Notes under the pieces: generated by a model
What the model was told of the DNA's origin: nothing
Databases searched by the model: none
The model's input: the letters and a program-made list of their open reading frames with translations, nothing else
Assembly: GCA_903851195.1 (NCBI GenBank)
Contig: CAINNJ010000025.1
Coordinates: forward strand, 310,001-374,000
Source: an uncultured Acidobacteriia bacterium
Lineage (GTDB): Bacteria; Acidobacteriota; Terriglobia; Bryobacterales; Bryobacteraceae
Direction of reading: 5' to 3'
Length of the DNA stretch: 64,000 nucleotides
Program-made: the position numbers and the translations under genes
Shown here: positions 10,174 through 43,098 of the stretch, piece after piece
How positions within the stretch are numbered: position 1 is the stretch's first letter
Layout of the letters: each line of letters begins with the position of its first letter

Positions 10174-10190
10174 GTGAGTATTGTAGCGAT

Positions 10191-11690: not shown

Positions 11691-11736
11691 GACCACCCTC
11701 AGATCGGAACCGGGAAGCACGTTAACCTGACTGGAT

Positions 11737-13391: not shown

Positions 13392-13412
13392 TTCACGCTG
13401 TCAGCAAGGGAA

Positions 13413-14078
13413 TTAGGCCGCGAGCGACGACACCATCGCCGGGAGCACGGCCGATTGAGCCAGACTGGCCAGGGCCTGCATCCAGGCCTGCGTCATGGGT
13501 TTCACGCCGCGGACGTAGTTCTGCAGATCCTGCCGCCGGATTCCCAGCAACTGCGTCTCGAACTTCACCCCGTAATACTGGCGCGGCGCCGCCAGCGGCT
13601 GAAAGCCGAACATGCGCTGATACGTCTCGGCATGCTCCACGCGGGGACAGGCCACCAGCCACCCGACTTCGTAGAAATCCGCCAGCGCCGCCATATTGCC
13701 CAGCAGCCGGACAAACGTGTCCCGCCGCGCCTGCGGACCGAAACAGAGCCGGCTGGCTTCGACGTACGATTCGCCGGACATCCGGATCAGTTCAGGGTGA
13801 TCGCCATAAACATGCTGCGCGGGCGAGTCCGTCCAGCCCCGCGCGGGGTTTACCACACTGATGCGGACGGTGGCCAGCGCCTGCTCGGCGGCATCGCGGA
13901 CCAGAAAGCTGAAGTTGCTTTCCATCTCGTCGAAGGGATCCGTGAACCGTTCGTCGGCGCGCGGATCGATGGAATTCTTCCGGCGGTAGCAGGCGTAACG
14001 AAGACGATAGACTTCGTCCAGTTCTTCCCGGGTGCGGGCAATCCGGCAATCGTGAGCGGGTGAGGTTTTGTTGAGCAT
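13413..14078 (-). CDS. FeeM-like N-acyl amino acid synthase / GNAT-fold acyltransferase
   Basis: 221 residues from the ATG at 14078, chosen because GAAGGAAG lies about 6 nt upstream; an in-frame ATG at 14129 has no such site. The protein has the autoinducer-synthase/FeeM shape: EELDEVYRLRYACYRRKNSI, a central DEMESNFSFLVRDAAEQALATVRIS, then ESYVEASRLCF. Related enzymes transfer a long acyl chain from acyl-ACP to an amino acid (FeeM) or to SAM (LuxI). The acceptor cannot be read from sequence. No NRPS or PEP-CTERM gene lies beside it. Confidence 0.7.
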   Translation of the reverse strand: MLNKTSPAHDCRIARTREELDEVYRLRYACYRRKNSIDPRADERFTDPFDEMESNFSFLVRDAAEQALATVRISVVNPARGWTDSPAQHVYGDHPELIRMSGESYVEASRLCFGPQARRDTFVRLLGNMAALADFYEVGWLVACPRVEHAETYQRMFGFQPLAAPRQYYGVKFETQLLGIRRQDLQNYVRGVKPMTQAWMQALASLAQSAVLPAMVSSLAA

Positions 14079-14127
14079 GTTTTCGCTTCCTTCACCCACC
14101 AGAGCGGAGGAGGCGAAAAAGTCCGCC

Positions 14128-14147
14128 AAAAAATTCCGAAATTTTTT
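14128..14147. other. AT-rich 20-bp palindrome between hydrolase and acyltransferase genes
   Basis: AAAAAATT-CCGA-AATTTTTT forms perfect 8-bp arms just upstream of the FeeM-like gene and overlapping the stop of the hydrolase gene. It could be a weak terminator for the hydrolase, an A-tract promoter element or a protein site. It is too AT-rich for a typical intrinsic terminator. Confidence 0.35.
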
Positions 14148-15030
14148 ATGCGCGCAAAAACGCGGTGGTTTCCCGGAGGAACAGTTCGCGCTGATCGTGA
14201 TGAAGCCAGTGGCCCGCGTTGGGAACGGTCACCAGGCGGCAATCGGGAATGGCCTCGAACCGGGGATCGCCGTGCGGCAGCGGCGCGAAACTCTCGAGTC
14301 CCCAGAACAGCAGCGTCGGGCAGGCGATGCGGCGGAAGATCTCGGTCGCCTCGCCGATGTCGTGCCCGTAGGGCGCCAGTGCGCGCATGTAGTTATCGAA
14401 CTTCCAGGTCATGGAGCCATCGGCGTTCCAGTTCGTCCCGTGCAGCGTGAGGTGGCGGGCCACCTCGGCCGAGAGACGCGGATTCGCCTCGCGCATCCGG
14501 GCGACGGCGGAATCGAGATCCGGGTACGCTTTGGCCGTTCTGGTTTCGACGTTTCGCACGGCTTCGATCCAGCGCCGCATGCGCTGCGGCGCCGGTTCAC
14601 TCATCCGGTGTTGCGGAGGGAAACCGATCCCTTCGATGGACACCGCGCGTCCCACCCGTTCCGGATACAGGCCGGAGTAATGCAGCACGATCATGCCGCC
14701 GAGCGAATGACCCACCAGACGGACCGGCACGCCGCCGTGCAGCGCGCCGACGATATCGAGCAGACCGGAAAGATCGAGGACGTTTTCCGCCATGCTGTAC
14801 ATCGCGCCGGGCGCCCAGGCGGAGTTGCCGTGTCCGCGCAGATCGTACGCGTAAACGTGATACTCCGGGCAAAGGGAACGCGCCACCCAGTCCCAGCTGC
14901 GGGCATGGTCCATCCCGCCGTGCACCAGCACCAGCGGCGGCTTGCCGTCCTGCCCGTAGTCCCAGAACTGCAGCTTCAGGCGGTCGGAGTAGAAGAAGTG
15001 GGAAATCGGTTCCAGATATTTATTACCCAG
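14146..15030 (-). CDS. Alpha/beta hydrolase with no normal start codon
   Basis: The core reads LVHGGMDHARSWDW, AYDLRGHGNSAW, then LVGHSLGGMIVLHYSG (nucleophile serine in GHSLGG), LLFWGLESFAP and a late GHWLHHDQ histidine, so the fold and triad look intact. The first usable GTG (14931) falls inside the first beta-strand (PPLVLVHGG). Codons in the same frame continue upstream, encoding a normal N-terminus (EPISHFFYSDRLKLQFWDYG), back to the TGA that ends the SDR gene at 15034-15036. No ATG, GTG or TTG lies between. The best in-frame candidate is a CTG at 15030. See the finding on this junction. The protein is probably a secondary-metabolism-type or epoxide-hydrolase-like esterase; the substrate is unknown. 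Confidence 0.75.
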   Translation of the reverse strand: MGNKYLEPISHFFYSDRLKLQFWDYGQDGKPPLVLVHGGMDHARSWDWVARSLCPEYHVYAYDLRGHGNSAWAPGAMYSMAENVLDLSGLLDIVGALHGGVPVRLVGHSLGGMIVLHYSGLYPERVGRAVSIEGIGFPPQHRMSEPAPQRMRRWIEAVRNVETRTAKAYPDLDSAVARMREANPRLSAEVARHLTLHGTNWNADGSMTWKFDNYMRALAPYGHDIGEATEIFRRIACPTLLFWGLESFAPLPHGDPRFEAIPDCRLVTVPNAGHWLHHDQRELFLRETTAFLRA

Positions 15031-15033
15031 ATT

Positions 15034-15768
15034 TCATTGATGCAAAGACGCCAGCAGGCGTCGCATCCCCTTCAGCCAGCGATCGTAATCGGTAGCTTTG
15101 CGCCGGAAATACTCGGCCACTTCCGGGTGCGGCAAAATGAGGAAACGCTCGTCGGCCAGGCCTTCCATGACGGCGTCGGCCACCTGCTCCGGGGTCAGAG
15201 CGGTTTCCAGCAACTTCGCGGCGATTCCGCTCTCCGGCGCGCCGAGCATGCTGGTCCGAACGCCTTGCGGGCAAACGGCGGAGACGCGAATTCCCTGCTC
15301 GTAGTGCGTGATCGCGAGCCATTCCGCAAGCGCCAGGGAGGCGTGTTTCGTCACTGCATACGGCGCGGAACCCAATTGCGTGAGCAGTCCGGCGGCCGAG
15401 ACCGTCTGCAGCAGGTAGCCGCCGCCGCGCGCGATCATGCCGGGAAGCACGGCGCGCGCCGCGTAGAGGTGCGCTTTCACGTTCACGGCCCAGATCCGGT
15501 CCCAGTCTTCGTCGGAGGTCTCGACGCCGCCCTCGATCAGAATGCCCGCGTTCGAGCAGAAGAGGTCGATCGGCCCGTGTTCCCGCTCCACGGCGCCCAC
15601 CAGACGCTGCAGATCGCACTCCTTTGCCACATCGAAACCGTTTTCCAGATCGGCGGACACCACGGCGCGCGCCCCTTCGGCTTCAAAGCGGCGGCACAGC
15701 GCGCGGCCGATGCCGTTCGCGCCGCCCGTCACTACGATGACTTTGTTCGCAGGATGCACAGCGTTCAA
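15034..15768 (-). CDS. Short-chain dehydrogenase/reductase
   Basis: 244 residues with classical SDR features: TGGANGIG at residues 14-21 for NAD(P) binding, NAGI, the catalytic serine in VSAAG, and YAVTK. The cofactor loop has [14 protein letters not shown], which leans towards NAD, though this is not certain. The substrate is unknown. The following alpha/beta hydrolase lies in the same reading frame immediately after this gene's TGA, so the two may be an operon or a split fusion acting on one substrate. Confidence 0.88.
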
Positions 15769-15795
15769 CCTATCACCGAAAGGCTGACAGCCGCC

Positions 15796-18700
15796 TCAGC
15801 GGGAAACCAGTGCAAGCAGCCTCGGATCCGTCTCGCGCGACATAAAACGCTCCATACTCCTGGCCGAGAGCGGGCGCGACAGCAGGAACCCCTGCGCCAC
15901 ATCGCAATCCACACTGCGCAGCAGCGCGTGCTGCGACCAGCGCTCCACGCCCTCCGCAATCGCGCTCAGTCCCAGGTTATGCGCCAGATCGACAATCGAG
16001 TGGACCAGCGGCAAGGTGCCGGACGGCGAATCGATTTCGCGAATGAACGAGCGATCGATCTTCAGTACGTCGATGGGGAGGCGGTGCAGGTAGCTCAGGG
16101 ACGAATACCCGGTTCCGAAGTCGTCGAGAGCGATGGTAAGACCCAGTGAACGCAGTTTTTCCATCTGACGGACGGACTCCTCCAGATGAACCATGACGAC
16201 GCTCTCCGTGACTTCCAGTTCCACTGCGTTGCCGGTAGTTCCGCCCTCGCGCAGCGCCCGCGCGACGCTCTGGGCAAAATCCGCCTGGGCGAACTGAAGC
16301 GTGGAGACGTTGATGGCGATCTTCGGGGGGATGAAACCGGCCTGGACCCAGGCTGCGCGTTGCCGGCAAACCTCCCGCAGCACCGAGGCGCCAATCTCGA
16401 GAATCAGGCCGGATTCCTCGGCGATACCAATGAAATCGCCCGGGGGGAGCAGACCAAGCTGCGGATGGCGCAGCCGGATCAGAGCTTCCATTCCCGCCAG
16501 AGCCATGCCGGCCGGGACGGCTTCGCCAGCGCCGCCGGAAGACTCCCCCGCGCCGTCGGCACGTTCGCCGATCATGAACTGCGGCTGGTATTCCAGTTCG
16601 AACTGGCTCTGCTCCAGCGCCTGGCGCATGTTCCGATCCATGTCCAGCCGGTGAAACGCCGTGCCGTTCATATCGTGCGTGAAACACTGGAAGCGATTTT
16701 TGCCCTGGTCTTTGGCGCGGTACATGGCATTGTCCGCGTGCTTCTGCAGAGTGGACGGGTCTTCGCCGTCCGCCGGGTAGAAACTGATGCCGATGCTCGC
16801 GGTGACAAACAGTTCGTTGCCGGCCACTACGACGGGTCGGCTGAGTGCCGCCAGCAGGCGCATTGCGGCATCCCGGGCGATATGCTCGTCGTCGATTTCC
16901 AGCAGCAGCATGAATTCATCGCCGCCCATGCGGGCGATGATGTCGCTCTTGCGGAGGCAGGCGGAAAGGCGGCCGGCAACCTGCTGCAGAAGCACGTCGC
17001 CGGCGCCATGGCCCAGCGAGTCGTTGACCTGCTTGAACCGATCCAGATCCAGATAAAGAAGCGCGAGTTTCTGTCCGTTCCGCCGGGCCCGATCCACCGC
17101 TTCCTGCAATCTTTCGGTGAAAAAGAAGCGATTCGGCAGCCGCGTGAGACTGTCGTACTGGGCCCGGTAGGCCAGTTCCCGATATAGGTGCGCATTCTCG
17201 ATAGCGCTGGCCGAGAGTCCGGCCATCGCTTCCAGCAGATTCAGGCGGTAAGCGGACGGCTTTGCCTTGTAAGGCCAGTACGCCTCGAGTGCGCCCAGGA
17301 TCTCGCCGGCGCCGGAGAGAATGGGTACGGTGGACGCGGAATGATAGCAGGCGGAGAGGAATTCCGTCTCGGCGGGAGACCAAACCTGTTCGGACGGGGC
17401 GGAGCCGGGACGCGCGATCGGACGCGCCGGCGCGTTGGAGGTCGGAGTCCGCGCCTGTGCCGCGGCAGCCCGGATCCTGGCGTGAAACATTTCGCCTGTC
17501 CCTTTGTCACGGAGGGCGTCCGCCCAGACCTCCGGCAGTCCGGCGCTGGCGGTAAAGGTAAAATCCCCGGCCGAGGCGGTGACCGCCACACAGGCGGAAC
17601 CCGGCTCGCTGGCCGCAATCAGTTGCGCCACCCGCCCCAGCACCACGCGGAGCGGTTCGCGACGGGCGATGAGCTCCAGCGTTTCCTTCCGGTCGTGATC
17701 CAGCTTTCGCGCCACTTCCAGCTGCGCCAGCAATTTCCCGCGGTTCCGGTAACTGCCGGACGCAGTCACCAACAGAGCCACGAAGGAAAATATGCCCAGC
17801 ACGGTGACGATCCGGAACCCGGTGCTGCGGTACCAGGGCACCAGAACAGTGAAAGCGAGGCGGGCCGGGTGCGGGTCGACGTTGCCGTTCCGGTCCATCG
17901 CGCGCACTTCGAAGCGGTGGGCGCCCCCGGCCAGTTTCCGGAATGACGCGGAGTTGCCCTCGGCGAAATCGCTCCACTTGTCGTCGTCGAGCCGCCAGGA
18001 GAACAGCAGCATCTCCGGCAGCGTCATATTCCACTTATCCACGCCCGAAAACAACAGGTGCACGGGCGCGTCCGGGGCCGCTTCCCGCGGGTTCACATCT
18101 TCGCTCAGCGTCGTTCTCGGCGGAGCCGGATCGGCTTCCGGATGGAAAAGAGAAATGCCCCGCGTGGTGCCGGTCCAGATGCGCCCCTGGCGATCTTCGA
18201 ACACGGTATAGACTACGGACGAAGGCAAGCCGTCTTCGCCGCTGTTCACAATCCAGGCGCCGTTCCGGAAACGGTCAACGCCGGTGCCGGAAGCCACCCA
18301 GATGGTGCCGTCGCGCGCGCGCAACATGTTGCGGACCCGGTCGAAACCCTTGTGAACGGAGGTCCACCTGTGCCCGTCGAACTCCTGGATTTCCAGTCGT
18401 CCGCCAACCCAGAGCCGGCCCGGCGACGGCTCGAAAAGGGAGAAAGCCCCGGTCAGGGTGAATCCGTCCGCCGCCCGCACGGAGCGATATTTCCCCTTGC
18501 TGTAGACACCGAGGCCACTGGAGCCGCCGATCCACAAATCGCCATCCGACGTCGCGCAGAGTGCCCGCAAATCGGTGTTTAACGAGGTGTTTTCCGGGGC
18601 GAGAAAAGGATGAAACTCGTTGCCGTCGAAGGTTTCGAACCGCCACGCGGCCAGATCGTCCTGCACCTGCGTCTGCACCAGAAAGCCACCGTCGCGGCGC

Positions 18701-20058
18701 GGCAGGAACGGCCGGATCTTGCGCCCTTCCGGGTGCCGGACCAGTTTGAAACGAGCGGTGCCCGGATCGAAGACAAGCACGGTGCCGGGTATTCCGGAAA
18801 GGATCGCGATTCGGCCGTCCGGGAGCGCCCGGAGCGCGTCCGTCAGGGTATTCGAAGGCCGTTGACCGCCTGGCAGCGGGTATTTCGTCCATTGGTCGCC
18901 TTGCAGGCGGATCAGGGTTTTGGGACTGAGGAACCAGACATTTCCCGCGGCATCGTCGGTAATCGCATTAATCAGCTCGTCGTTCTCGGGGCCGCGAACG
19001 GCGGCCGGAGTCCTCCAGATCGAGGGAGAATAGCGCGCGATGCCCTGGCTGGTGGACACCCAGAACGTGCCGTCCGCGGCCGGATTGATGTCGAGCACGA
19101 TGCCGGAAAGGGCGCCCAGGCGGCCGGCCGGTTCCTCCCGGCCGCCGGTCAGGCGCATGATCTGGTCGCTGTCCGCCACCCAGATGTCCCGATCGGCCCC
19201 TCGCCATCCCGTCAGCAGTTTGCTCTTGCCCCGATAAAACGGATGCCAGTCTTTGCCGTCGAAACGGATCAGAACCCTGCTCTGCCCGGATGAGGCGGCG
19301 ACGAATACCTCGCCGTCAACGCCTTCGCGAGGCTGGTCGAAATCGAAATAGGCGGCGGGCGCCACGTATTCCTGCCACTGCAGCCGGTCGTCGCCGGGAG
19401 TTTCGTGAACCAGAGCCGTGCCGCGCTGTCCGGAAACCCAGATTCGGCCGCCGGGCGTCCGGTACATGGCAATGAACCGCTGCAGGGCGCTTTCCGCCGC
19501 GGTCTTGATGGTGCGTGTGGCGCCGGTGCCGGAATCGAATTCCACAAGTTTGTCCGGCAGCAGGACCAGGACACGCCCCCCTCGGAGTGGACACAGAGCG
19601 ACGTAATAAAGCGGATCCGCGCCGCCCGGCAGTACCCAGCGAAGGCGGATGTCCCGGGTGAACTTCGGCCACCGCTTCAGTTCGGGCAGTTCGAAAGAAG
19701 TCCACTTCGCGCCGTGATAACGACGGAGACTGGTGCCGTCAAACATCCAGAGGTCGCCGTCGCTGCCGATGGTCAGCCGTCCCAGTCCCGTGGGATCGGG
19801 TACGGTCTCCACGCCATATCCCGTAAGACGGGAAATGCGCTCGACATCGCCGTGTTTTGCCAGCGCGGCTCCGGAAGAATCGATCGCCACATTGGCGGTA
19901 TACGATTCCGTCATGCCTTCCGCGGTGCTCCAGAAACGCCACGCGGGAGGCGCCTGCGCCGCCGCGGAGACGGACAAAACGGCAAGCGCACTCATGGCGC
20001 GCAACAGGGCGAAAGCTGTCACGCTCTTCTCAAGCCCGCCTTTTCCGTTCCGTCTCAA
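15796..20058 (-). CDS. Propeller sensor - Y_Y_Y - TM - GAF - GGDEF - EAL protein
   Basis: 1420 residues. A signal-like start is followed by a two-component-type regulator propeller (repeated G-x-LWIG/IWVG units such as DGDLWIGGSSGLGVYS, to about residue 640), a Y_Y_Y beta-sandwich (about 665-730), one membrane helix near 750-775 and a GAF domain (about 800-950). A GGDEF domain follows (RMGGDEF near 1044, with an RxxD inhibitory site five residues before it), then an EAL domain (MEALIRLRHP near 1190, INVS, EVTES, DDFGTGYSSL, AEGVE). Both c-di-GMP synthesis and hydrolysis motifs are complete. The periplasmic propeller probably senses a glycan-type ligand and sets c-di-GMP levels. The layout is like the N-terminus of hybrid two-component systems, with the kinase replaced by GGDEF-EAL. 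Confidence 0.9.
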   Translation of the reverse strand: MRRNGKGGLEKSVTAFALLRAMSALAVLSVSAAAQAPPAWRFWSTAEGMTESYTANVAIDSSGAALAKHGDVERISRLTGYGVETVPDPTGLGRLTIGSDGDLWMFDGTSLRRYHGAKWTSFELPELKRWPKFTRDIRLRWVLPGGADPLYYVALCPLRGGRVLVLLPDKLVEFDSGTGATRTIKTAAESALQRFIAMYRTPGGRIWVSGQRGTALVHETPGDDRLQWQEYVAPAAYFDFDQPREGVDGEVFVAASSGQSRVLIRFDGKDWHPFYRGKSKLLTGWRGADRDIWVADSDQIMRLTGGREEPAGRLGALSGIVLDINPAADGTFWVSTSQGIARYSPSIWRTPAAVRGPENDELINAITDDAAGNVWFLSPKTLIRLQGDQWTKYPLPGGQRPSNTLTDALRALPDGRIAILSGIPGTVLVFDPGTARFKLVRHPEGRKIRPFLPRRDGGFLVQTQVQDDLAAWRFETFDGNEFHPFLAPENTSLNTDLRALCATSDGDLWIGGSSGLGVYSKGKYRSVRAADGFTLTGAFSLFEPSPGRLWVGGRLEIQEFDGHRWTSVHKGFDRVRNMLRARDGTIWVASGTGVDRFRNGAWIVNSGEDGLPSSVVYTVFEDRQGRIWTGTTRGISLFHPEADPAPPRTTLSEDVNPREAAPDAPVHLLFSGVDKWNMTLPEMLLFSWRLDDDKWSDFAEGNSASFRKLAGGAHRFEVRAMDRNGNVDPHPARLAFTVLVPWYRSTGFRIVTVLGIFSFVALLVTASGSYRNRGKLLAQLEVARKLDHDRKETLELIARREPLRVVLGRVAQLIAASEPGSACVAVTASAGDFTFTASAGLPEVWADALRDKGTGEMFHARIRAAAAQARTPTSNAPARPIARPGSAPSEQVWSPAETEFLSACYHSASTVPILSGAGEILGALEAYWPYKAKPSAYRLNLLEAMAGLSASAIENAHLYRELAYRAQYDSLTRLPNRFFFTERLQEAVDRARRNGQKLALLYLDLDRFKQVNDSLGHGAGDVLLQQVAGRLSACLRKSDIIARMGGDEFMLLLEIDDEHIARDAAMRLLAALSRPVVVAGNELFVTASIGISFYPADGEDPSTLQKHADNAMYRAKDQGKNRFQCFTHDMNGTAFHRLDMDRNMRQALEQSQFELEYQPQFMIGERADGAGESSGGAGEAVPAGMALAGMEALIRLRHPQLGLLPPGDFIGIAEESGLILEIGASVLREVCRQRAAWVQAGFIPPKIAINVSTLQFAQADFAQSVARALREGGTTGNAVELEVTESVVMVHLEESVRQMEKLRSLGLTIALDDFGTGYSSLSYLHRLPIDVLKIDRSFIREIDSPSGTLPLVHSIVDLAHNLGLSAIAEGVERWSQHALLRSVDCDVAQGFLLSRPLSARSMERFMSRETDPRLLALVSR

Positions 20059-32966: not shown

Positions 32967-33043
32967 GGGCGGTTAGCTCAGCCGGTTAGAGCACCTGCCT
33001 TACAAGCAGGGGGTCCGCGGTTCGATCCCGCGACCGCCCACCA
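32967..33043 (+). tRNA. tRNA-Val (anticodon TAC)
   Basis: A complete cloverleaf: acceptor GGGCGGT pairs with ACCGCCC, the D arm contains AGCTCAGCCGGTTAGAGC, the anticodon stem-loop is CCTGC-CTTACAA-GCAGG (anticodon TAC), and the T arm is CGCGGTTCGATCCCGCG. CCA is encoded. It reads GTA/GTG valine codons. Its 3' half is duplicated at 41331-41367, marking the integration site of the island that follows. Confidence 0.97.
33004..33040 (+). repeat. Attachment-site repeat, tRNA-proximal copy
   Basis: 37 bp from the anticodon stem to the discriminator base of tRNA-Val, identical to 41331-41367. This is the usual position of a tyrosine-integrase crossover site in a tRNA gene; after integration the tRNA stays intact. 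Confidence 0.9.
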
Positions 33044-33113
33044 CTTCACCCCTTTTAGAATCAATACTTTGTAGTTCTCCGGATTTATCATTTGCCTTCT
33101 CCGAGTCAAAAAC

Positions 33114-33134
33114 GTATCAAAACCGTATCAAAAC
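33114..33134 (+). repeat. GTATCAAAAC direct repeats, putative arm sites (left)
   Basis: Two copies of GTATCAAAAC at 33114-33123 and 33125-33134, 11 bp apart. The same doublet occurs near the other end of the island at 41191-41211. Paired arm-type sites for an integrase or excisionase fit the position; this is inference. Confidence 0.5.
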
Positions 33135-33154
33135 CCCTCCGGTTCTGAACTGCC

Positions 33155-33755: not shown

Positions 33756-34164
33756 TTATTCCAGCTTCGCTGCGCGGCCGAGGAATAACCTCCGCTCGGC
33801 GTGCACGATCCCCAGCCGAACCCGATCCAGCCAGCCCCGTCGGCCGACAAACGCGTGCGCCGGATTTCCCAGCGCGTGGAAGAAGACAAGCGCCCACTAT
33901 TGAAGCCCAATGGTCTCGATTTCAATCTCGTGCCCGATCGCCAGAAACGACCCGGTTACGGTCCGATACTGCCGCTCGACTCCGGAGTCGGGGAGCTGCA
34001 GGACCTCCGCATAGGAGCGATCAAAAAGACAGTCGGCCGCCCCTGTATCCAGACGCGCTGTCAGTTCCCACGCTGCGGTCCCCGTAGCTAAGCCGGACAG
34101 GGACCAGAATCCCGGCACTGGTTTCCTGATATTCCAGGTCCGCGTCGAAATCCAGAGATCTCAA
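33756..34164 (-). pseudogene. Retropepsin-like aspartyl protease gene, frameshifted and with a stop
   Basis: The gene can be rebuilt across two lesions. From a TTG at 34164, overlapping the upstream gene's TGA, it reads LEYQETSAGILVPVRLSYGD. A one-base shift near 34070 moves it to the frame WELTARLDTGAADCLFDRSY, with the aspartyl-protease motif DTGA. That frame continues to ETIGLQ, meets an in-frame TAG at 33897-33899, and then continues in the same frame as WALVFFHALGNPAHAF and GRRGWLDRVRLGIVH to TAA at 33756. An intact gene would encode about 135 residues, the normal size for this family. It pairs with the RHH/DUF5678-like gene immediately upstream. Confidence 0.8.
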
Positions 34165-34520
34165 TCGAGCCATCCGCCGGCGAACGGCTGCTCGTCATGC
34201 GGGGAAACGAAGATCAGGAACGGTGACAGGTCGCCGCCGGCCCGCGCGTCTTCGTACAGCTGTTTCGGATTCGGGCCACTTGCCACTACCCGGCTGCCTT
34301 CCAGAACCACCCATTGACCGATGAACCGAGCCTCTGGCCGCGAAGCCCAAGCCAGTTCGGCGGCGCGCGGACGGGATGGCGTTGGACGGACCGCAGGGAC
34401 CGGCGTCTCGCCCAGGTATGCCCGGACCGCCGCCGAGATCAGCGTGCTCACATCCATCCCGCGCCCGGCCGCTTCCGCGCGGAGCCCGGCTTCGATATCG
34501 GGAGCCAACTGGATACTCAT
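34161..34520 (-). CDS. RHH-like / DUF5678-like small protein
   Basis: 119 residues from the ATG at 34520, chosen for its GGAGGGGAGG Shine-Dalgarno. The N-terminus (IQLAPDIEAGLRAEAAGRGMDVSTLISAAVRAYL) looks like a ribbon-helix-helix DNA-binding or antitoxin segment. The C-terminal part (FIGQWVVLEGSRVVASGPNPKQLYEDARAGG) matches the DUF5678 pattern. Its stop overlaps the start of the decayed retropepsin gene (TTGA). Such pairs are widespread and have been suspected of being toxin-antitoxin-like; that is not established. Confidence 0.75.
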   Translation of the reverse strand: MSIQLAPDIEAGLRAEAAGRGMDVSTLISAAVRAYLGETPVPAVRPTPSRPRAAELAWASRPEARFIGQWVVLEGSRVVASGPNPKQLYEDARAGGDLSPFLIFVSPHDEQPFAGGWLD

Positions 34521-35091
34521 CGCGATCCTCCCCTCCAGCATAGCGAACCCGGCCGCCGGTCCTGGCCTGCTGGCCGATATCACCCGCTATTAGAGAGCGC
34601 GGTGCTTGTGGAAATGTGGAAAACGCGAACCGCAGCCGCCTCCGGAAGGGGGGAAAGTCCGATTCGTGGGAGGACGATCACGGTTGCATGGGTTCTCTTC
34701 GGCACCTGGGGTGAACGTGTTCGGCCCTCGCGGGTTTTAGCCGATTTGGCATTGCCGCTCTGTACGAGTGGCCGACAATACAGACAGTCGGTCCTATACA
34801 TCGCAAGGGGTTCGCGCAAGCGATGCTGAGATCCGAGCTAACAGGACGTCGATGGGCGCGGATGCCGGTTTCTACATTCTCGATTACGGGGCTTTCACCA
34901 GTGCCGGAAGGCTTGCAAATCAACGTGCGTGGCGAGTTTGAATCTCACTTTCGGAGACGGGAAACAACTGCCCGACCGGGCCAGCTCGGAATCGAGCGCT
35001 CGCAGATTAGAAACCGACCCATTGGCGGCCTGGCTCTTATAAAATCCTCTTGCCAATTAGAAGTTTTCGATGGTTGGGCGCTCAATGGCCT
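34521..35091. other. Intergenic stretch in the island, nothing assigned
   Basis: About 570 bp between the RHH-like gene and the end of the Ebony-like gene. Short ORFs on both strands (for example 34580-34819 minus, 34823-35167 plus) have no recognisable domain and no good ribosome site. I see no repeat or RNA motif here. Confidence 0.4.
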
Positions 35092-37542
35092 TTACAGTCC
35101 ACCCTCGAACAGGACGGCGCCCGGATGGCCAGACCCGATCGATTCGAACGGCGTACGGTTCTGGTAAACAAATTCAGAGTACCGGGTAACGGCGAGGCTC
35201 TCGAAAAGGTGAACGCGTTCACTGAGGAACACGGTTGCCTGGTGAGTACAGATGGTGATCACTCGCCGATAGCCATGTGCCCTGAGGCGGCCACATACCT
35301 CGCGTTCCATACTCGCGGCCAGAGACAAGGCATCTAAACCAGGAGCGCATCCGGTCATAAATATTTCGGCGACCTCACATGGCTCGAACGGGCCTCGCAA
35401 CGCGACATATTTGGCCTGGAGTTCCTCCATAAGCGCGAAGATCGGTGACATGCTGGGGTACTGGGCCTCGCCGGATGCGGCCGGCATCGCCCCGTCGAAC
35501 CCGTGAGCCATGCAGAAACCAACGAGCTTGCCACTGACCCGGTCGCGGGCAACCACCGATGTGCCGTGCCTCATGCTTTCGTCTACAACCTGACGGCAGA
35601 AGAGGCGGAATTCGTGGGACGGCAGTTCGAGAGCCTGAGCCATTGGCTCAGCTCGCAGAAACGATTCCATCGCCAGCGCGGCGGTCTGGTCCACATCGGC
35701 ATGCGTCAACGATTCGATGATGATTCCTTCATCGGGAATGGGCGAGACCGGCCCGGCCCCATCGAGGATAAGCGCTGCTTCCAGCGCTGACATTCGCATC
35801 GTGAGTGCACTTTCCTGCCGTTCGCCGATTGCCTGGCGGCGGCCGAGACGCAACAGGAAACGGATCCACTGCATGGAATCGCCACCAAGCCGCAGGAAAC
35901 TGTCGGTCCGGCGCACCGGTGAAACGTTGAGAAGGTCAGACCAGGTCGCGGCGATCCATTGCTCGGAGTCCGTTGCCGGCAGGTCGTTGGGACTGACATC
36001 GGGGTCCGGATGGGACTGCGGCGCCCACCGCGAAATATCACGCGCCAGTTTTCCGTTCGGGAGCCGTGGCAGGGCTTCCATTCCGATGAACTTGCCGGGG
36101 CAGGCGAACTCCGGCAGAACCTGGCCCAGCAACGTCGACAACTGGCAGGAGTTCGCCTCCGTCGGCGCTATATAAGCGATCAGCCGCAGTTCACCCGGAA
36201 GCCCTACGGCCGCCACAACAGCTTCCCTGATGCCCGCATTCAGGCCGATCAAGGCATTCTCAATTTCTTCCAGTTCCACTCGATTGCCGCGAATCTGAAC
36301 CTGCCGGTCGCCGCGGCCGGCATAGTAAAGCATTCCATCCGGCCCTTCGAAAACCCGATCGCCGGTCCGGTACATGCGTTCAGCCGGCGCCTCAGGATCG
36401 GGCAGGAATCGCGCGGCCGTTTCTTCAGGCCGGTTGTAATACCCCAATGCGACCGCCTGGCCGCCGACATACAACTCGCCTTCCTCGCCAGGCTGAACGG
36501 GCTTCTGCCCGGGACCCAGCACGTAGCAACGAGTATTAGCAATCGGTCTGCCGATCGGTATGCGCGCTCCGATTGGCTGAGTAGGCGATGCCACAATCGC
36601 GAAAGTTGCGTCTCCGGCGATCTCGGTGGTTCCGTAGAGGTTCAGGAGCGTGGCATTCGGAGCGGCCGCATGGAAGCGAATGGCCGTATCGCGCGGGAGC
36701 GCCTCTCCGCTCGATGTCCACAGGTTCAATGCCGGCAACGCATTGCCCAGCCGTGGTTCCGCTTCGAGCAGAAGGTTGAGTAGCGCCGGAACGACGGTAA
36801 TTCGCGTTGCGCGGCTCTCGCGCAGGAGGGCAATCAGCCTGGTGGGATCGGAAGAATCGCGAGACGGGACAATGAGCGTGGGGATTCCGGCAAGGAGACC
36901 TCCATACAGTTCCCAGACCGAGTCGACGAACGCCGGCGAGGTGCGGGCCGCCAATACATCGGAACTTCCGAATGGAAATGCGTTCCACATCCACTCGATC
37001 CGATTTGCGGTTGCGGCGGCGGACCCGGCCACTCCTTTGGGCGTCCCGGTGGAACCGGAGGTGTAGATCAGATACAGGGGCGTTTGGGGCGGCCGTTGCT
37101 CGATCGACTGAAATCGACCGGGCTCAGCTTCGAGATCCTCCAACCAAAGAACGGGCCAGGGTGACAATTCGGATTTTTGGCCGGAGCGGTCGGGCGTCCA
37201 GGAGTCGAGCACATACTTAGGGCGGCAATCTGCGAGGATAAAGCTGCGACGCGCCATTGGGTAGAAGGGATCGAGCGGAACGGCCACGGCCCCCGCCAGG
37301 CCAACGCCCAGCATCGCGGCAAACGCGTCAACCGAGCGGGACATGTGGATCGCGATCCTGTCTCCCGGGCACACGCCTCGGGCGGCGAGACCGGCGGCGG
37401 TCGATTCGGCTTTGAGCCGCAGTTGGTGAAACGAAACGTTCCCGGAACCGCTTAGGTTGAGGAGCGCAGGCTCGTCGGGCCGGGCCAGGGCGACAGTCTG
37501 GAAGCGCGCGAAAAGGTCGCCCCGTATTGTGGGTTCCGGCAT
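35092..37542 (-). CDS. Ebony-like adenylation - carrier - GNAT protein (predicted beta-alanyl-amine synthase)
   Basis: 816 residues in three parts. The adenylation domain (about 1-505) has YTSGSTGTPKG at 160-170, NLYGTTE, YRTGDR, GRGDRQVQIRGNRVELEEIE and LPNGKLARD with K498. The carrier domain (about 520-590) has LGGDS with Ser556 for phosphopantetheine. The C-terminal part (about 605-816) is GNAT/arylalkylamine-N-acyltransferase-like (FLRAEPMAQALEL, SVVARDRVSGKLVGFCMAHG). This A-T-GNAT order and length match insect Ebony, which activates beta-alanine and couples it to amines such as dopamine and histamine. Pocket residues aligned to GrsA 235-517 are V206, D207, W210, T249, T276, S278, L302, G310, D311, K498. 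The shifted Asp (236, not 235) and VDW..SLGDK fit beta-alanine. It starts 5 bp after the ATPase stop. The acceptor amine is unknown. Confidence 0.85.
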   Translation of the reverse strand: MPEPTIRGDLFARFQTVALARPDEPALLNLSGSGNVSFHQLRLKAESTAAGLAARGVCPGDRIAIHMSRSVDAFAAMLGVGLAGAVAVPLDPFYPMARRSFILADCRPKYVLDSWTPDRSGQKSELSPWPVLWLEDLEAEPGRFQSIEQRPPQTPLYLIYTSGSTGTPKGVAGSAAATANRIEWMWNAFPFGSSDVLAARTSPAFVDSVWELYGGLLAGIPTLIVPSRDSSDPTRLIALLRESRATRITVVPALLNLLLEAEPRLGNALPALNLWTSSGEALPRDTAIRFHAAAPNATLLNLYGTTEIAGDATFAIVASPTQPIGARIPIGRPIANTRCYVLGPGQKPVQPGEEGELYVGGQAVALGYYNRPEETAARFLPDPEAPAERMYRTGDRVFEGPDGMLYYAGRGDRQVQIRGNRVELEEIENALIGLNAGIREAVVAAVGLPGELRLIAYIAPTEANSCQLSTLLGQVLPEFACPGKFIGMEALPRLPNGKLARDISRWAPQSHPDPDVSPNDLPATDSEQWIAATWSDLLNVSPVRRTDSFLRLGGDSMQWIRFLLRLGRRQAIGERQESALTMRMSALEAALILDGAGPVSPIPDEGIIIESLTHADVDQTAALAMESFLRAEPMAQALELPSHEFRLFCRQVVDESMRHGTSVVARDRVSGKLVGFCMAHGFDGAMPAASGEAQYPSMSPIFALMEELQAKYVALRGPFEPCEVAEIFMTGCAPGLDALSLAASMEREVCGRLRAHGYRRVITICTHQATVFLSERVHLFESLAVTRYSEFVYQNRTPFESIGSGHPGAVLFEGGL

Positions 37543-37547
37543 TGTGC

Positions 37548-39695
37548 TTATCTCACGCCAATCTCGCTTTGCGCGTGCTTGCGTACTGGCCGCATCGCGA
37601 GACCCAAACCGGCAAATAACGAGGCCAGCCAGATGACGGTCCCGCCGACGATACCGACCACGCCAAACATTGCCCCACCGATGATCACCACTCCCTGGCT
37701 GATAGCGGCGAAAGCCCCGGCGTTCATATTGTTCTCAAGATCGCGGGCGAGATCGAACAGCAGTGGCAACTGGCTAAGGCTCTGACTCATGAAAACGATC
37801 TGCGCCGTGTCGGTGGCGGCAGTGGATGAGCCACGAAGTGAGATTGAAACATGTGCCGACTTTAACGCGATGGTGTCGTTGATTCCGTCCCCGACAAAGC
37901 AGACAGACCGGCCTTCCCTTTGAAGCTCCTTGACGATCGCCGCTTTGCCGGCGGGCAGCGTATCGTAAAAATAACGTGAGATGCCCAGCTTCGCGGCAAT
38001 ACGCCGCGTAGGCTGCTCGTGGTCGCCGGAGACGATACAGACGTCCAGCTTGCGTCTGCGCAGCTCGGTCACCACCAGGTGGGCTTCCGGTCGCAGAGTG
38101 GGGCGCAACTCGATGGCGCCGTGCAGAACGGAGTCGACGGCGACCATGACCAGCGAATTCGCCTCTTCCCTGCTGGTCATCAGCAACTCCTGAAAGCTGT
38201 CTGGAATTGGGACTTGCTCATCGGCCATAAACCGCGCGCTTCCCACCCGGATCCAATGCCCGTCCAGGCGCACACTCAGGCCGAACCCGACGCGGTAGTC
38301 CGCATTGTCAGCTTCCGGGACGGTCAGGCCGCGGCGTCGGGCTTCGGTTAGAATTGCCTTTGCTATTGGGTGCGTCTGGCGATGCTCCGCGGCTGCGGCC
38401 TGCATGACCACGGTATCGGCGTCTATCCCCGGCAAAGTGTGGACCTGCGCCGCTTGCAACTCATCCAGGGTTAAGGTCCCGGTTTTGTCGAACACCACGG
38501 TGTCCACGTCCCTTAGGAGCTCGAGCGAGCGGCCGTCCTTCACCAGAATTCCCTGCGTGGCGGACGCGTTCAGGAAATTCAGAAGCGCAATCGGCGCGGT
38601 GAGCCGTATGTTTAATCCAATGGCCGATCCCAGAATCGTGACCATCGACTGATAGCCGGAGAGAGGCAGGGCGACGAGCGCCAAGGCCAGGCTGGGCGCC
38701 ACCGAGCGGTCGGCCAATCGCTCGCCTTTTGACACGACGCTCGCCTGATAAGAGGCCGTCTTGTTTAGAATCGCACCGATTTGGGCCGCCACCGTCTCCT
38801 CACCGGTTTTCTCAACCCTGACCACCGCCCTGCCCGATACCATCATTGTCGCGGTCAGGACCGGATCGCCGGCGCCTTTCTCCACCGGTTCACTTTCGCC
38901 GGTCAACAGATGTTGATCGACCATCGCCGCGCCTTCAATGACAATGCCGTCGACTGGAATCACATCGCCGGCCTGGAAGACGAGGGAATCGCCTGCCCGG
39001 ACGGACTCAAACGGGACTTCAATATCGGCACCGCCGGCGTGCTTCCAGACGGTCTTGGGCTGCTGGCGGAAGACTTCGCTCATCGTCTTGCGCGAACGGT
39101 CCTGGGTTACCAGTACGAGCTTTTCGCCGATGTAGTAGGCAACAAGACTGAATGCCCCGGGAATCAGGTAGCCGCCGCAAAATAAACCGATGAAGTAGAG
39201 CGACCCCATCACATCCATGCGCAGTCTGCGTTCCCGCACTATGGCCTGGTAACCGTTGCGAAAGATGACGCCGGTGCTGTACAGCGCGGTGCCGAGAGTG
39301 ACAATGACGAGTGGTGGGTACACAATCGCGCCAACAGCCGCCGTAATGCTCACGGCTGCGGCCGCGATACAGCGGTTCAGTTGGCGCTCATATGCTCCCG
39401 TGGCCGGGTCGGCATCCGCTGAGGCGAGTTCGTCGCGGTACCGGCCGAAGACCGGATCGACCTTCTCGGCGACCAGCTTTTGGAAGCGTTCGTCAATCCC
39501 GGCCAACAGGGCCCTGGTGCGGCCGGCCTCTCGCCGGTAGAAGAGCGGGCCAGCCTGACGGGTCTCGAGCCACGACTCTTCGAGGCGGCTTCGGATGCGC
39601 CGGATCCCGGCGTCGAGGCTCTGCGCTTTGAGGCGTGCCCGCGCCGCACGCGCCGGAGCCGCCATCTTGGGTAAATCACTCGTATAGGTTGGCAT
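37548..39695 (-). CDS. P1B-like P-type ATPase without the CPC motif
   Basis: 715 residues. P-type ATPase motifs are complete: TGES at 265-268, DKTGT with phospho-acceptor D403, a P1B-type HP in EHRQTHPIAKA, and VGDGINDTIALK. No N-terminal HMA domain is present; an Arg-rich helical N-terminus (about 100 residues) takes its place. In the membrane segment before DKTGT, where CopA/ZntA have CPCALGLATPTA, this protein reads IGLNIRLTAPIA, so all three CPC residues are missing. The transported ion is therefore uncertain and may not be a soft metal. The start at 39695 overlaps the upstream gene by 20 bp; the ATG at 39665 is a possible alternative. It lies between the unknown gene and the Ebony-like gene in one operon. 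Confidence 0.88.
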   Translation of the reverse strand: MPTYTSDLPKMAAPARAARARLKAQSLDAGIRRIRSRLEESWLETRQAGPLFYRREAGRTRALLAGIDERFQKLVAEKVDPVFGRYRDELASADADPATGAYERQLNRCIAAAAVSITAAVGAIVYPPLVIVTLGTALYSTGVIFRNGYQAIVRERRLRMDVMGSLYFIGLFCGGYLIPGAFSLVAYYIGEKLVLVTQDRSRKTMSEVFRQQPKTVWKHAGGADIEVPFESVRAGDSLVFQAGDVIPVDGIVIEGAAMVDQHLLTGESEPVEKGAGDPVLTATMMVSGRAVVRVEKTGEETVAAQIGAILNKTASYQASVVSKGERLADRSVAPSLALALVALPLSGYQSMVTILGSAIGLNIRLTAPIALLNFLNASATQGILVKDGRSLELLRDVDTVVFDKTGTLTLDELQAAQVHTLPGIDADTVVMQAAAAEHRQTHPIAKAILTEARRRGLTVPEADNADYRVGFGLSVRLDGHWIRVGSARFMADEQVPIPDSFQELLMTSREEANSLVMVAVDSVLHGAIELRPTLRPEAHLVVTELRRRKLDVCIVSGDHEQPTRRIAAKLGISRYFYDTLPAGKAAIVKELQREGRSVCFVGDGINDTIALKSAHVSISLRGSSTAATDTAQIVFMSQSLSQLPLLFDLARDLENNMNAGAFAAISQGVVIIGGAMFGVVGIVGGTVIWLASLFAGLGLAMRPVRKHAQSEIGVR

Positions 39696-40779
39696 GCAGG
39701 GCTGGGAATGGGAGTTCAGTCAGACTGGATGCGCTCTCAGGTTGACCAGGTTCAACAGAATCCGGAACATTGCGGAGGTTCGGCGGCTGATTCTCTGCGC
39801 ACTTTGCGCTGAATGGAGAGGTATCGGGAATCGGACCAGCCCAATTTGCGAAAACGATGAGTACGGCCTTCATCGAGTCGAAAAGTTCCTCGGCGACGGC
39901 GGGTTCAAGGCGATGTCCAACCAGGAGGTCCGCGAGCACCTGTTCCATAATGTCGCTTACCTCGTACACGTACTCAGCACGCGTTAGGACGGGATGTCGC
40001 TCGATCCCAAACCATTGATCCAATTCCCCAAACGCGGCTTCGTCCACCCTGGGCATCTCATGGTGCTGGCGGTAGTACTCGGCCCGAAGAGATTCTCCTT
40101 TCGTAGCCGCGCCACGGCTTCGGTCCGGTCCATCCACCACTTTCGGAACGGCACGGACCATGCACTTTTCGTGAAGCTCGTGATATCGTAGCTCGGCGGC
40201 GATCCAGATCGAGCGAATGCGCTGGATGAAAGGATCAGAGCTGCACTTCGGGAAAGCCTCCTTGAACGCCTCGACGCCTGGTTGGAAGGCGTTCTGCCGC
40301 TCGCGGATTTGGTAACCGGTGAACCCCGGTGGCATATGATTTCGGATCTGGCCGCGATAAATCACACTGCACGGCTCGAAGTCCGTACCATACAGAAAGA
40401 GGGAACCCAAGCCTCGCCGCAGCCGAGCTCCAAGTACAAGCCAATCGAGGGCCAATGATTGGCGCCCCTCTCGCATGGCCTTTGCGGAATTCGAAAGCGC
40501 ATGTCCGGCGATCGCCATCATGGGGATGAACAATCCGTGGCTTAGCCTCCATCGTTTATCGCCAAGATGGGACTCGGCGCCGGTTGGATGCGATGCGGCA
40601 CACATCCGCCGTTGACTTGTCCCTGCGACAGTTGCTACGGCATTCCACAAGCAGGAGATCTGCGACAGCAGGATGCCCTGTTCCGGATCGTCAATGGCTC
40701 CGGCGGCTGGCGGTATCAGTCCGCCGTCGGGCAGCGTAATGATCTTCGCGCGCCTGTGATAACCGTTTGGCGGGCTCAT
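39676..40779 (-). CDS. Unrecognised helical protein, first gene of the Ebony-like operon
   Basis: 367 residues from the ATG at 40779; in-frame ATGs further up (for example 40842) cannot be excluded and no site has a convincing Shine-Dalgarno. I do not recognise the family. It looks soluble and mostly helical: ILLSQISCLWNAVATVAG, WRLSHGLFIPMMAIAGHAL, LGARLRRGLGSLFLYGTDFEP, RIRSIWIAAELRYHELHEKC, then YVYEVSDIMEQVLADLLVGH and SMKAVLIVFANW. Several His, Glu and Asp residues in the helices could bind metal, but this is speculation. It has no signal peptide. It overlaps the P-type ATPase by 20 bp, so it almost certainly works with it and the A-T-GNAT enzyme. Confidence 0.65.
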   Translation of the reverse strand: MSPPNGYHRRAKIITLPDGGLIPPAAGAIDDPEQGILLSQISCLWNAVATVAGTSQRRMCAASHPTGAESHLGDKRWRLSHGLFIPMMAIAGHALSNSAKAMREGRQSLALDWLVLGARLRRGLGSLFLYGTDFEPCSVIYRGQIRNHMPPGFTGYQIRERQNAFQPGVEAFKEAFPKCSSDPFIQRIRSIWIAAELRYHELHEKCMVRAVPKVVDGPDRSRGAATKGESLRAEYYRQHHEMPRVDEAAFGELDQWFGIERHPVLTRAEYVYEVSDIMEQVLADLLVGHRLEPAVAEELFDSMKAVLIVFANWAGPIPDTSPFSAKCAENQPPNLRNVPDSVEPGQPESASSLTELPFPALHANLYE

Positions 40780-41190
40780 GAACCTGCTGCTCGCGCCGAA
40801 GTGCCCGCGTAAAGGACCGTGACTCGTTGATTCGATCCGCATGACGAGGTTTGCCGGAGTACTTTGAGGGCTGGTGTTCCTGATCGTCCGGGGGCGACCT
40901 TCCAGGTTTCTACGAAGAGATGGGCTGCCTTGGCGGAAAGGGTGCAAGCCAGACTCGAAACAGAAACACTCGGCATGCGGTGATGGATAGTACCTCCTCT
41001 GAAGAGTCTACCAACGGCGCGCTTCCGTTCGCCTTCCGGATCGTTGTCCGTAAGGCCGAAAGGGAAGATCTTCACCGTGCCCCCCATGGGCAAGCCGTCG
41101 CTGCTCACCGGCAACCAGTGTGCACTGGCTCCAACAGCTCGGGAAGTGCCGTTGTGGGAACTGTAGGGCCTCGCTATGAGCGGATCAGGC
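40780..41190. other. Upstream region of the Ebony-like operon
   Basis: About 410 bp with no assigned gene. A strong AGGAGGT ribosome-site-like sequence on the minus strand (about 40991-40997) precedes a minus-strand ORF of uncertain status that starts at an ATG near 40978 and ends at 40776, overlapping the next gene. It could be a leader ORF, but its translation is not recognisable. The operon promoter should lie here; I cannot pick it confidently. Confidence 0.35.
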
Positions 41191-41211
41191 GTATCAAAAC
41201 CGTATCAAAAC
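41191..41211 (+). repeat. GTATCAAAAC direct repeats, putative arm sites (right)
   Basis: GTATCAAAAC at 41191-41200 and 41202-41211, 11 bp apart, in the same orientation and spacing as at 33114-33134, about 120 bp inside the right attachment repeat. Confidence 0.5.
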
Positions 41212-41330
41212 TCCATCCGTTCAGGCACCTGAAGTTACCCTTTGAGCGAGAGCAGATTCCCCAGGTTGCTGAAAACAAAGAAAAAACGATAGAAACCACA
41301 AAGCCAAAAGAAGCCTTCTCCACGTCTTAT

Positions 41331-41367
41331 AAGCAGGGGGTCCGCGGTTCGATCCCGCGACCGCCCA
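41331..41367 (+). repeat. Attachment-site repeat, distal copy
   Basis: Exact copy of 33004-33040 (3' end of tRNA-Val) without the 5' half of the tRNA, followed by AACA instead of CCACCA. It is the distal boundary of the island. Confidence 0.9.
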
Positions 41368-41613
41368 ACATAACTACTTTAATTTCAATAGCTTACGGAA
41401 TCTCTGAGACTCCTGCCAGAAAGCACGACACCAACAACTTAACCTCTGTTGGCCCCGTATAAGCAAGGCCAATGGTATCTTTGACCGCCGCGAGGATGTT
41501 CACGCTGTAGTAAGGATTGCTGGTAGGCATCACGGTGCGGTTGTCGCTGGAGCGCGTTCCCCCGCGGGTACGCCGTGACAAGGCTGGCCGCTTTTTGGCG
41601 TTTGGCCCGCGAA

Positions 41614-42015
41614 CTACCAGATCGTCTTGAGTCCGGACCTTCGGATGTTCTCGTCCCGCGTTACCAGCGGAACCCTCAGGGCCAGTGCCGTAGCGGCAAT
41701 AATCCGGTCAGGCATATCAGGCACCAGATCCCGCGCTATTATGCGCAGTTGGCAGGCAACCGCCAAATCCAGTGGCGCGGTACGGAAGCCTGCCAGCGGA
41801 TTCCGGAGCGCCGCTGTGAGCCGTTCCAGCGCCAACCAGGGAATCCTGCCCTTTTCCGCAAGATAGGTCGCCTCGACAAGACAGATACTCGGAACATAAA
41901 TCGGATCCCCGTTGACTCCGGCCGCATCCATCGACCGCGCCGCGCGTTCGGACAAGCGGGGATCGGAAAAGATGTACCACAGCACCGCGTGTGTATCCGC
42001 GACAACGCTGGCCAT
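41614..42015 (-). CDS. vapC: VapC-type PIN-domain toxin
   Basis: 133 residues from the ATG at 42015, whose first base is the last base of the antitoxin stop (TGATG). PIN acidic residues are present: ADTHAVLWYIF (first Asp), ICLVEATYLAEKG (Glu), and DMPDRIIAATALALRVPLVTRDENI (Asp pair near the end). It is a predicted ribonuclease toxin, neutralised by the adjacent VapB. The locus lies just beyond the distal attachment repeat. Confidence 0.9.
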   Translation of the reverse strand: MASVVADTHAVLWYIFSDPRLSERAARSMDAAGVNGDPIYVPSICLVEATYLAEKGRIPWLALERLTAALRNPLAGFRTAPLDLAVACQLRIIARDLVPDMPDRIIAATALALRVPLVTRDENIRRSGLKTIW

Positions 42016-42239
42016 CAGCCTTCGTCGCGTGGGAAGTTCTTCCACATTTCGAGTCGCTCCGCGGCAATGTCCTGCTCGGAGACGGATACCCCGAGATCGG
42101 CACAGAGCCCACGCATGCTGAGCAGCGGACGCGGAACATCGGTGCGGTATTGCAGGAACTCAGCAAAGTCCAGCACCTCTTTTTGCCGGTCTGGCGCCAG
42201 TCCCCTCACCCGCTCCAGGATAGCCTCTTCAATGCTCAT
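42015..42239 (-). CDS. vapB: VapB-like antitoxin (DUF2281 type)
   Basis: 74 residues. The N-terminal MSIEEAILERVRGLAPDRQKEVLDFAEFLQY is the DUF2281-type antitoxin start, and a Pro-rich linker with a C-terminal toxin-binding part (SEQDIAAERLEMWKNFP) follows. The stop overlaps the vapC start by one base. A TATAAT -10 hexamer lies at 42256-42261 on the minus strand. Confidence 0.88.
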   Translation of the reverse strand: MSIEEAILERVRGLAPDRQKEVLDFAEFLQYRTDVPRPLLSMRGLCADLGVSVSEQDIAAERLEMWKNFPRDEG

Positions 42240-42347: not shown

Positions 42348-43098
42348 TCACACTCCGCGTTTTTCCCGCACAGCGGTTGCCTGGTGCAGTTCGGGAAAGG
42401 CTCCGTTGCTCGCCACGACTGCCGGGCATTCCGGCCAGCAAAGACGAACCAACTCGAGCCATTGTCGAATCCGTTCCCGGAACTTCCGCTCCCTCGCGTA
42501 GTCCTGCACACCCAACTGACTACCCAGTCCCATCGGACCGAACAACGGAATCCGCTGGACCTCTCTGGCCTGATAGCACCGCCACGTCAGCCACGTGTAC
42601 AAGTCGAGGCATCCGGGATTGTTCGCCAGCGCCCGCACGACTTCTGTATCGACCGGCATTGGATGGGTCCTGAGTTCCTCCCGGAATGCCGGCGAAAGTG
42701 TGACTGTATTCTCTCCCTTCTTTCCGCCTGCTGCCGAAGACCCGGCGGAAGCCGTCATGCAGCCGCCGAAAATGCGATCCATTGGTCTGCATTCCCCACT
42801 CGACCAGAATTTCGGTGGCGCTGCCGAAACGAACCACGGGGCTCTTCTGGCGGACGGCGGCCGTGGCGAGCCACAGCAGGACAAGCCGGTCCTGCCCAAA
42901 CGGCACGCCGTACTCAGGATGCCCCACGATCTCCAGCAAGAACCGTCCGTTCCGGCGCGAATACTTCAGCGTCTGAGGCGGTAGTCGGCGAATGGATTCG
43001 ATCTGTTCTACCTTGCCAACCGCACGTACAGCGACGGGCGGGGCGACGAGGACATCTTCAAACAGATCGCGGACACACGCACCGGCGTGTTTCAGCAT
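42348..43098 (-). pseudogene. RepA-type plasmid replication initiator, frameshifted
   Basis: Two overlapping reading frames together make one RepA_C-like initiator. The first (from 43098) contains EYGVPFGQDRLVLLWLATAAV and SATEILVEWGMQTNGSHFRRLHDGFRRVF. After about 42720 homology continues in another frame with NTVTLSPAFREELRTHPMPVD, VVRALANNPGCLDLYTWLTW, RIPLFGPMGLGSQLG and ARERKFRERIRQWLELVRLCWPECPA to 42348. The piece between the two blocks is shorter than I expect for the family, so a deletion with frameshift is likely. It is a remnant of a plasmid or replicating element in the chromosome, outside the attachment repeats. Confidence 0.8.

Follow-up and report, generated by a model that had tools for sequence, protein, structure and literature searches.

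The Drosophila protein Ebony combines, in this order, an adenylation domain, a carrier domain and a C-terminal condensation domain, and its adenylation pocket is of a beta-alanine type. P-type ATPases lie near non-ribosomal peptide synthetase (NRPS) genes in mycobacterial isonitrile lipopeptide loci, where nrp is found near ctpB, a partial precedent raised in an initial annotation of the DNA described below. Beta-alanyl amines are described as products of Ebony and likewise of enzymes from schistosomes and planarians (PMC11214079). The miuraenamide polyketide synthase (PKS)-NRPS cluster contains orf16 and orf23, two ATPases annotated as heavy-metal P-type; orf23 has its best match in Nannocystis sp. 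MB1016 (PMC10051162). Such an ATPase was counted among the transport genes in the lusichelin paper (PMC12210259). A bacterial Ebony did not appear in the title or opening of the abstract of any literature match listed, nor is one mentioned in the available parts of PMC10531068, PMC11214079, PMC8072286, PMC11755721, PMC8097023 and PMC12943608. The 64,000-nt stretch analysed here (the window) corresponds to C25:310001-374000 in the genome of an uncultured Acidobacteriia bacterium (7.72 Mb, 67 contigs) and contains a three-gene operon, carried on an island of about 8.3 kb, that encodes an 816-aa enzyme with the domain order of Ebony, a 715-aa P-type ATPase and a 367-aa protein of no recognised family. 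Predicted structure and domain layout give good support to the view that the 816-aa protein is a bacterial Ebony-type synthetase.

The initial annotation described a tight minus-strand operon with a 20-bp overlap followed by a 5-bp gap, and the open reading frames (ORFs) and their strands are as it stated. Its assignment of the 816-aa protein as an adenylation-carrier-GNAT enzyme likewise agrees with the Pfam domains (AMP-binding, 3.5e-72, residues 14-369; PP-binding, 2e-5, residues 528-569) and with the structure match of the C-terminal part. Residues 605-816 gave a confident model, and the structural comparison that the annotation had proposed returned the C-terminal condensation domain of Drosophila Ebony (6dym) as the first Foldseek match (E 4e-14, TM 0.85), the fold being shared over nearly the whole domain despite an identity of 15-16%. 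The domain has the arylalkylamine N-acetyltransferase (AANAT) fold, and its Glu632 corresponds in the alignment to a Glu that precedes Pro both in the fly enzyme and in the chlorovirus protein A654L (profile match 1.6e-13), a residue that acts as the general base; in three standalone relatives the same position is Glu in one and Asp in two. The glycine-rich coenzyme A (CoA) loop belongs to motif A of CoA-using AANAT/GNAT acetyltransferases and is degenerate here, residues 737-744 reading DALSLAAS, with LSLA where the standalone relatives read RGVA, RGVA and RGIG. Retention of the Glu together with loss of the CoA loop would be expected if the domain received its acyl group from a carrier, although a dead domain would be equally compatible with it.

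The C-terminal domain has matches in 4 of 396 genomes of the phylum and in 4 of 150 genomes, the source genome being included in both counts. Those in G340, G278, G350, G469 and G526 stand alone, with no adenylation, condensation or ketosynthase (A/C/KS) match nearby; the P-type ATPase near the G350 relative is a CPC copy, and a partial match in G503 has no A/C/KS neighbour within the 3-kb stretch read. Because these genome relatives are bacterial standalone GNATs, the adenylation-carrier-AANAT architecture may be of separate origin. Searches with the domain alone found no match in plasmids or phages, whilst a viral fold library gave one match to the model at TM 0.76-0.83 and weaker ones otherwise, many of them annotated as acetyltransferases.

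Motif anchors were used to locate the ten positions of the adenylation pocket in 13 aligned adenylation domains from loci of the genome, which has 23 such matches, some of them non-NRPS. This alignment yields VDWTTSLGDK, with the Asp shifted from position 235 to 236, the same pocket as in the initial annotation; the last column is less safe, since 2 of the 12 other domains have a residue other than Lys there. Asp236 is unique to the 816-aa protein among the 13 domains, the remaining ones having Asp235 (11) or Gly235 (one). Other pockets in the genome include DFWNIGMVHK in three domains and DLFNNALTYK in one, which we take to be threonine and alanine codes, respectively. A conserved Asp235 is described as contacting the alpha-amino group (PMC11355689). 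As read from the residues, the pocket is suggestive of a fit to beta-alanine, and beta-alanine is a likely substrate of the 816-aa protein. Nothing close to the whole protein was found: a contig scan of the genomes gave three adenylation matches at 24-25% identity and nothing nearer, and the 2022 plasmid records matched were all below 60% identity.

The second gene product was initially called a P1B-like ATPase without CPC, and this description holds: TIGR01525 matches at 5.3e-117, above its cut-off, and the M4 motif NIRLTAPIAL (residues 362-371) has no Cys, a CPC copy at locus L069 serving as the control for this reading. Pfam recognises E1-E2_ATPase (3.3e-31) and Hydrolase (2.6e-28) and finds no metal-binding domain, the catalytic motifs are in place (LTGE at 264, DKTGT at 403, THP at 441, GDGIND at 602), and the best-scoring solved structure is CopA. 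A soft-metal role is unlikely because the M4 transport motif lacks Cys, and the link to a metal drawn in the initial annotation is weakened. A P-type ATPase on the Methylobacterium plasmid pMRAD05 (L029, 26-2479) is 39% identical to the window ATPase and has GIRMAAP in place of CPC; no NRPS gene is among the 29 features listed for this plasmid.

The window ATPase belongs to a distinct group of Cys-free or Cys-poor pumps. The source genome has 12 P-type ATPases, seven of the Cys-poor kind and five others, three of which were read at the motif (CPC, TPCP and MgtA-like). A Cys-poor ATPase profile, run against 150 genomes of the order with E 1e-130 as the upper limit, identified 15 members in four of them (seven in the source genome, six in a same-genus genome and one in each of two others), counts that are lower bounds because no more than seven candidates were scored per genome. 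This profile was built from five copies, all beside biosynthetic genes, and may favour such copies elsewhere; a Pfam search that made no use of it also recovers all seven source-genome copies among its 12. On a midpoint-rooted tree of 20 rows the 15 Cys-poor ATPases form one group (100/99), within which the window ATPase joins three megasynthase-adjacent copies and one copy from the sister genome G478 with modest support (81/80), and four of the seven copies that have no A/C/KS or related neighbours form a subgroup of their own (100/99). The M4 motif varies between copies. The copy at C64:302 kb (L037, 12526-14667) reads DKFAV instead of DKTGT and is probably, for this reason, without the usual phosphorylation site context. 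An ATPase of the C58 cluster (L032, 11525-13698) is split over two overlapping frames, either naturally or by sequencing error.

A survey for co-occurrence of the three operon genes was proposed in the initial annotation. The full set was not found elsewhere, whole-genome searches having covered the phylum of the source organism, whereas the association of the ATPase with A/C/KS genes did, in 7 of the 15 members (two of them beside only a standalone AMP ligase), with one more beside related genes. Within the source genome five of the seven Cys-poor ATPases have such neighbours, namely the window copy, two copies at a PKS-NRPS cluster on C58 and one copy at each of two C64 clusters, near 224 kb and near 400 kb; the copies on C33 and at C64:302 kb have none in the surrounding 32 kb and 20 kb, respectively, that were read. 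None of the five other P-type ATPases is less than 8 kb from an A/C/KS gene, the nearest (C64:194-195 kb) being about 11 kb away, and no Cys-poor ATPase accompanies the NRPS genes at C64:73-88 kb. All 15 condensation matches of the genome are on C58 and C64, with none on the contig of the window, and ketosynthases are on C58, C64 and a few other contigs. Excluding the window copy, four of six copies are near a megasynthase (P about 9e-6, from about 218 kb of sequence near megasynthases with 8-kb flanks and a hand-estimated proximity fraction of 2.8%), a value that overstates the case because two of the four share one cluster. Apart from the ATPases and one 4298-aa megasynthase (3), a simple hydrophobicity scan assigned more than two hydrophobic segments to no protein of the C58 and C64 clusters read, a crude test given that the ATPases there scored only two to four. 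The NRPS-PKS cluster at C64:203-226 kb (L035-L036) has a Cys-poor P-type ATPase at its end, together with a flavin adenine dinucleotide (FAD) enzyme and, by eye, carbamoyltransferase-like and methyltransferase-like genes.

In the sister genome G478, two Cys-free ATPases flank an amidinotransferase gene in a compact, natural-product-like cluster that also encodes a carrier protein, an AMP ligase, a GNAT with no BLAST similarity to the C-terminal domain of the 816-aa protein, an SbnA-like pyridoxal phosphate enzyme, flavin enzymes (one CmlS-like), an FAD enzyme and a CADD-like protein. This amidinotransferase is 49% identical to that of the C58 cluster, which is close to SxtG (1.2e-109). A third G478 copy is preceded by a methyltransferase gene whose product is 62% identical to the C58-cluster methyltransferase, and by a short frame that matches the amidinotransferase in its own first 18 residues. 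No A/C/KS gene is present within the 31, 7 and 16 kb read around three copies on contig C110 and around the one copy in each of two further genomes.

The 367-aa protein was reported as unrecognised, and no Pfam or NCBIfam match up to E 1 was found. Its frame has 440 open codons. In 2000 sequences simulated from this stretch with a first-order Markov model no frame exceeded 396 codons, so the frame is probably a gene, but it is atypical in codon usage, with a mean score of -0.024 (39676-40947) versus +0.117 and +0.062 for its neighbours. PADLOC and plasmids contain no homologue, and the matches in PHROGs (E 0.37) and in the PDB (a thioredoxin, E 2.2) are no better than these values. Among the 396 phylum genomes two besides the source gave matches, at E 5.7e-5 (query residues 74-144) and at E 1.2e-4 (query residues 76-177). 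One is inside a frame that is protein-kinase-like by eye and the other in a stretch with four stops; both were taken as chance, leaving no credible relative in this set. Comparison with 11 relatives gave weak matches in three (E 0.05-0.5), none credible. A helical haem- or haem-oxygenase-like enzyme was also considered, and comparison with a DUF3865-like neighbour in the G478 cluster yielded nothing.

Table 1. Features of the island, the operon and a G478 cluster; positions are those of the window except in the last row.
Feature	Position	Strand	Remarks
tRNA-Val (tac)	32967-33043	+	probable integration target
Attachment-site copy, within tRNA 3' end	32999-33043	+	
CGTATCAAAAC repeat, left island end	33113-33145	+	copy at 41190-41222 near right end, 88%
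Tyrosine recombinase fragment, catalytic part only, 178 aa	33158-33694	-	Pfam 3.6e-14
DUF5678 protein	34161-34583	-	3.4e-8 (Pfam); inside island
816-aa adenylation-carrier-AANAT-fold synthetase (Ebony-type, predicted)	35092-37542	-	
C-terminal AANAT/Ebony-fold domain, residues 605-816	35092-35730	-	Glu632 kept; CoA loop degenerate
Carrier domain, residues 528-569	35836-35961	-	LGGDS phosphopantetheine site, Ser556
Adenylation domain, residues 14-501	36040-37503	-	core motifs present; pocket VDWTTSLGDK
715-aa P1B-like P-type ATPase, no Cys in M4 motif	37548-39695	-	
367-aa protein, family unknown, operon gene 1	39676-40779	-	
Second attachment-site copy	41326-41370	+	96% identity to last 45 nt of tRNA-Val, direct repeat
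Compact natural-product-like cluster, G478:C77 (L063)	5958-19955		several family matches under curated cut-offs

The operon is part of a tRNA-targeted integrative island, which is bounded by 45-nt copies of the tRNA-Val 3' end, one of them at the far border, and contains a tyrosine recombinase gene (Table 1). Present mobility of this island is doubtful because the recombinase keeps its catalytic part only. The G+C content is unremarkable (0.57-0.63 per kb), and the island DNA has no match in the plasmids searched. Besides the operon, a short frame that is protease-like by eye follows the DUF5678 gene (the two together at 33897-34583, minus strand). Just outside the island is a PIN-domain gene (4e-14) with a 74-aa gene directly upstream (41614-42239, minus strand), an arrangement that is toxin-antitoxin-like, and two overlapping minus-strand frames adjoining the right border (42348-43098) match plasmid-replication families (RepA_C, 1.5e-8; RPA, 0.0085, under its cut-off).

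In the interpretation that we favour, with a probability of roughly 0.5, the island carries a minimal cassette for making and transporting an amide, most likely a beta-alanyl amide. The adenylation domain would activate a short beta-amino acid, most likely beta-alanine, and load it on the carrier domain, and the Ebony-like C-terminal condensation domain would then join the acyl group with a small amine that is free in solution. Transport of the product, or of the amine from which it is made, across the membrane would fall to the P1B-like pump without a metal site, and a possible role of the 367-aa protein is to provide or alter that amine. Several observations weigh against this interpretation. 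Searched by sequence alone, the C-terminal domain found no Ebony (the best PDB match was A654L, 0.0082), and its profile favours insect acetyltransferases (from 3.1e-11) over Ebony (6.5e-4, weak); the degenerate CoA loop could also mean that the domain is inactive. The AlphaFold model of the 367-aa protein is unusable (pLDDT, the predicted local distance difference test, of 40), and the complete gene set was not found outside the window. The beta-alanine code used for comparison resembles VDWVISLADK. No such code was found in the literature searched, among the matches listed, or obtained from the available parts of PMC3630128, PMC13126170, PMC12305651, PMC7756342, PMC11355689 and PMC11356792. 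In the miuraenamide cluster, loss of orf14-16 did not alter the yield, which was 0.07 mg/L before and after, and deletion of orf19-23, for which the authors saw no plausible function, increased it from 0.07 to 0.70 mg/L and made the product profile more complex (PMC10051162). Each of these regions includes one of the two ATPases, so the deletions argue against their being essential for production in the host used and are silent on export.

Three other explanations depart from the amide cassette at different steps. The pump might move an inorganic ion by a non-thiol site and be linked to a beta-alanyl amide pathway only genetically, for instance on a resistance or homeostasis island. We consider this unlikely: the ATPase is clearly in the P1B group (TIGR01525, CopA), and an A/C/KS or related gene is lacking, as far as the surroundings were read, around two relatives in the source genome and around five of the eight from sister genomes, but the Cys-free, variable M4 motif, the lack of any metal-binding domain by Pfam and the above-chance closeness to biosynthetic genes of four of the six other source-genome copies all point elsewhere, and the neighbourhood makes a product-linked transport role the better guess. 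It is rather improbable that the amide is made from another small acid, such as 3-aminoisobutyrate or a different beta-amino acid; Val235/Asp236 suits beta-amino acids generally, and the codes used for comparison are beta-alanine-like only, yet Trp239 and the remaining pocket match the code taken for beta-alanine itself. Least probable of the three is a chance fusion, in which a CoA-type acetyltransferase, ordinary or dead, forms the C-terminal domain of a protein that just loads an amino acid on its carrier for use elsewhere. Its standalone GNAT relatives in unrelated settings and its degenerate CoA loop are consistent with such a fusion; the Glu is kept while that loop is lost, however, Foldseek ranks a carrier-dependent condensation domain first, and the window's own contig has no condensation domain.

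If the amide cassette is real, Ebony-style joining of a carrier-bound beta-amino acid to a free amine would not be specific to animals, and bacteria would provide a compact, perhaps separately assembled version of Ebony for study and engineering. More speculatively, and in our view doubtfully, the Cys-free P-type ATPases may be former metal pumps turned dedicated transporters of small cationic natural products, recruited repeatedly beside NRPS, PKS and amidinotransferase genes; the island would then be the smallest version, in which an Ebony architecture assembled in bacteria independently of animals is combined with such a pump. The ATPase group makes the cargo of Cys-free P-type ATPases testable, and is a possible genome marker of natural-product loci that have no other exporters.

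The miuraenamide ATPases, like that of the window, are inside a natural-product cluster; they are myxobacterial and are likened to it by annotation, not by sequence. CopA and ZntA, heavy-metal ATPases of the P1B type, share the DKTGT, TGE, HP and GDGIND motifs and the overall sequence of the 715-aa protein, which differs from them in having neither CPC nor another Cys in M4 and in the recurrent NRPS/PKS neighbourhood of its group. Insect arylalkylamine and dopamine N-acetyltransferases and A654L have the fold, the Glu before Pro and the profile matches in common with the C-terminal domain; they are acetyl-CoA users, whereas the window domain has a degenerate CoA loop and a carrier domain ahead of it. 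Drosophila Ebony shares with the 816-aa protein both the adenylation-carrier-AANAT-fold order and the fold of the C-terminal domain (6dym), the difference being that the window enzyme is bacterial and carried on an island.

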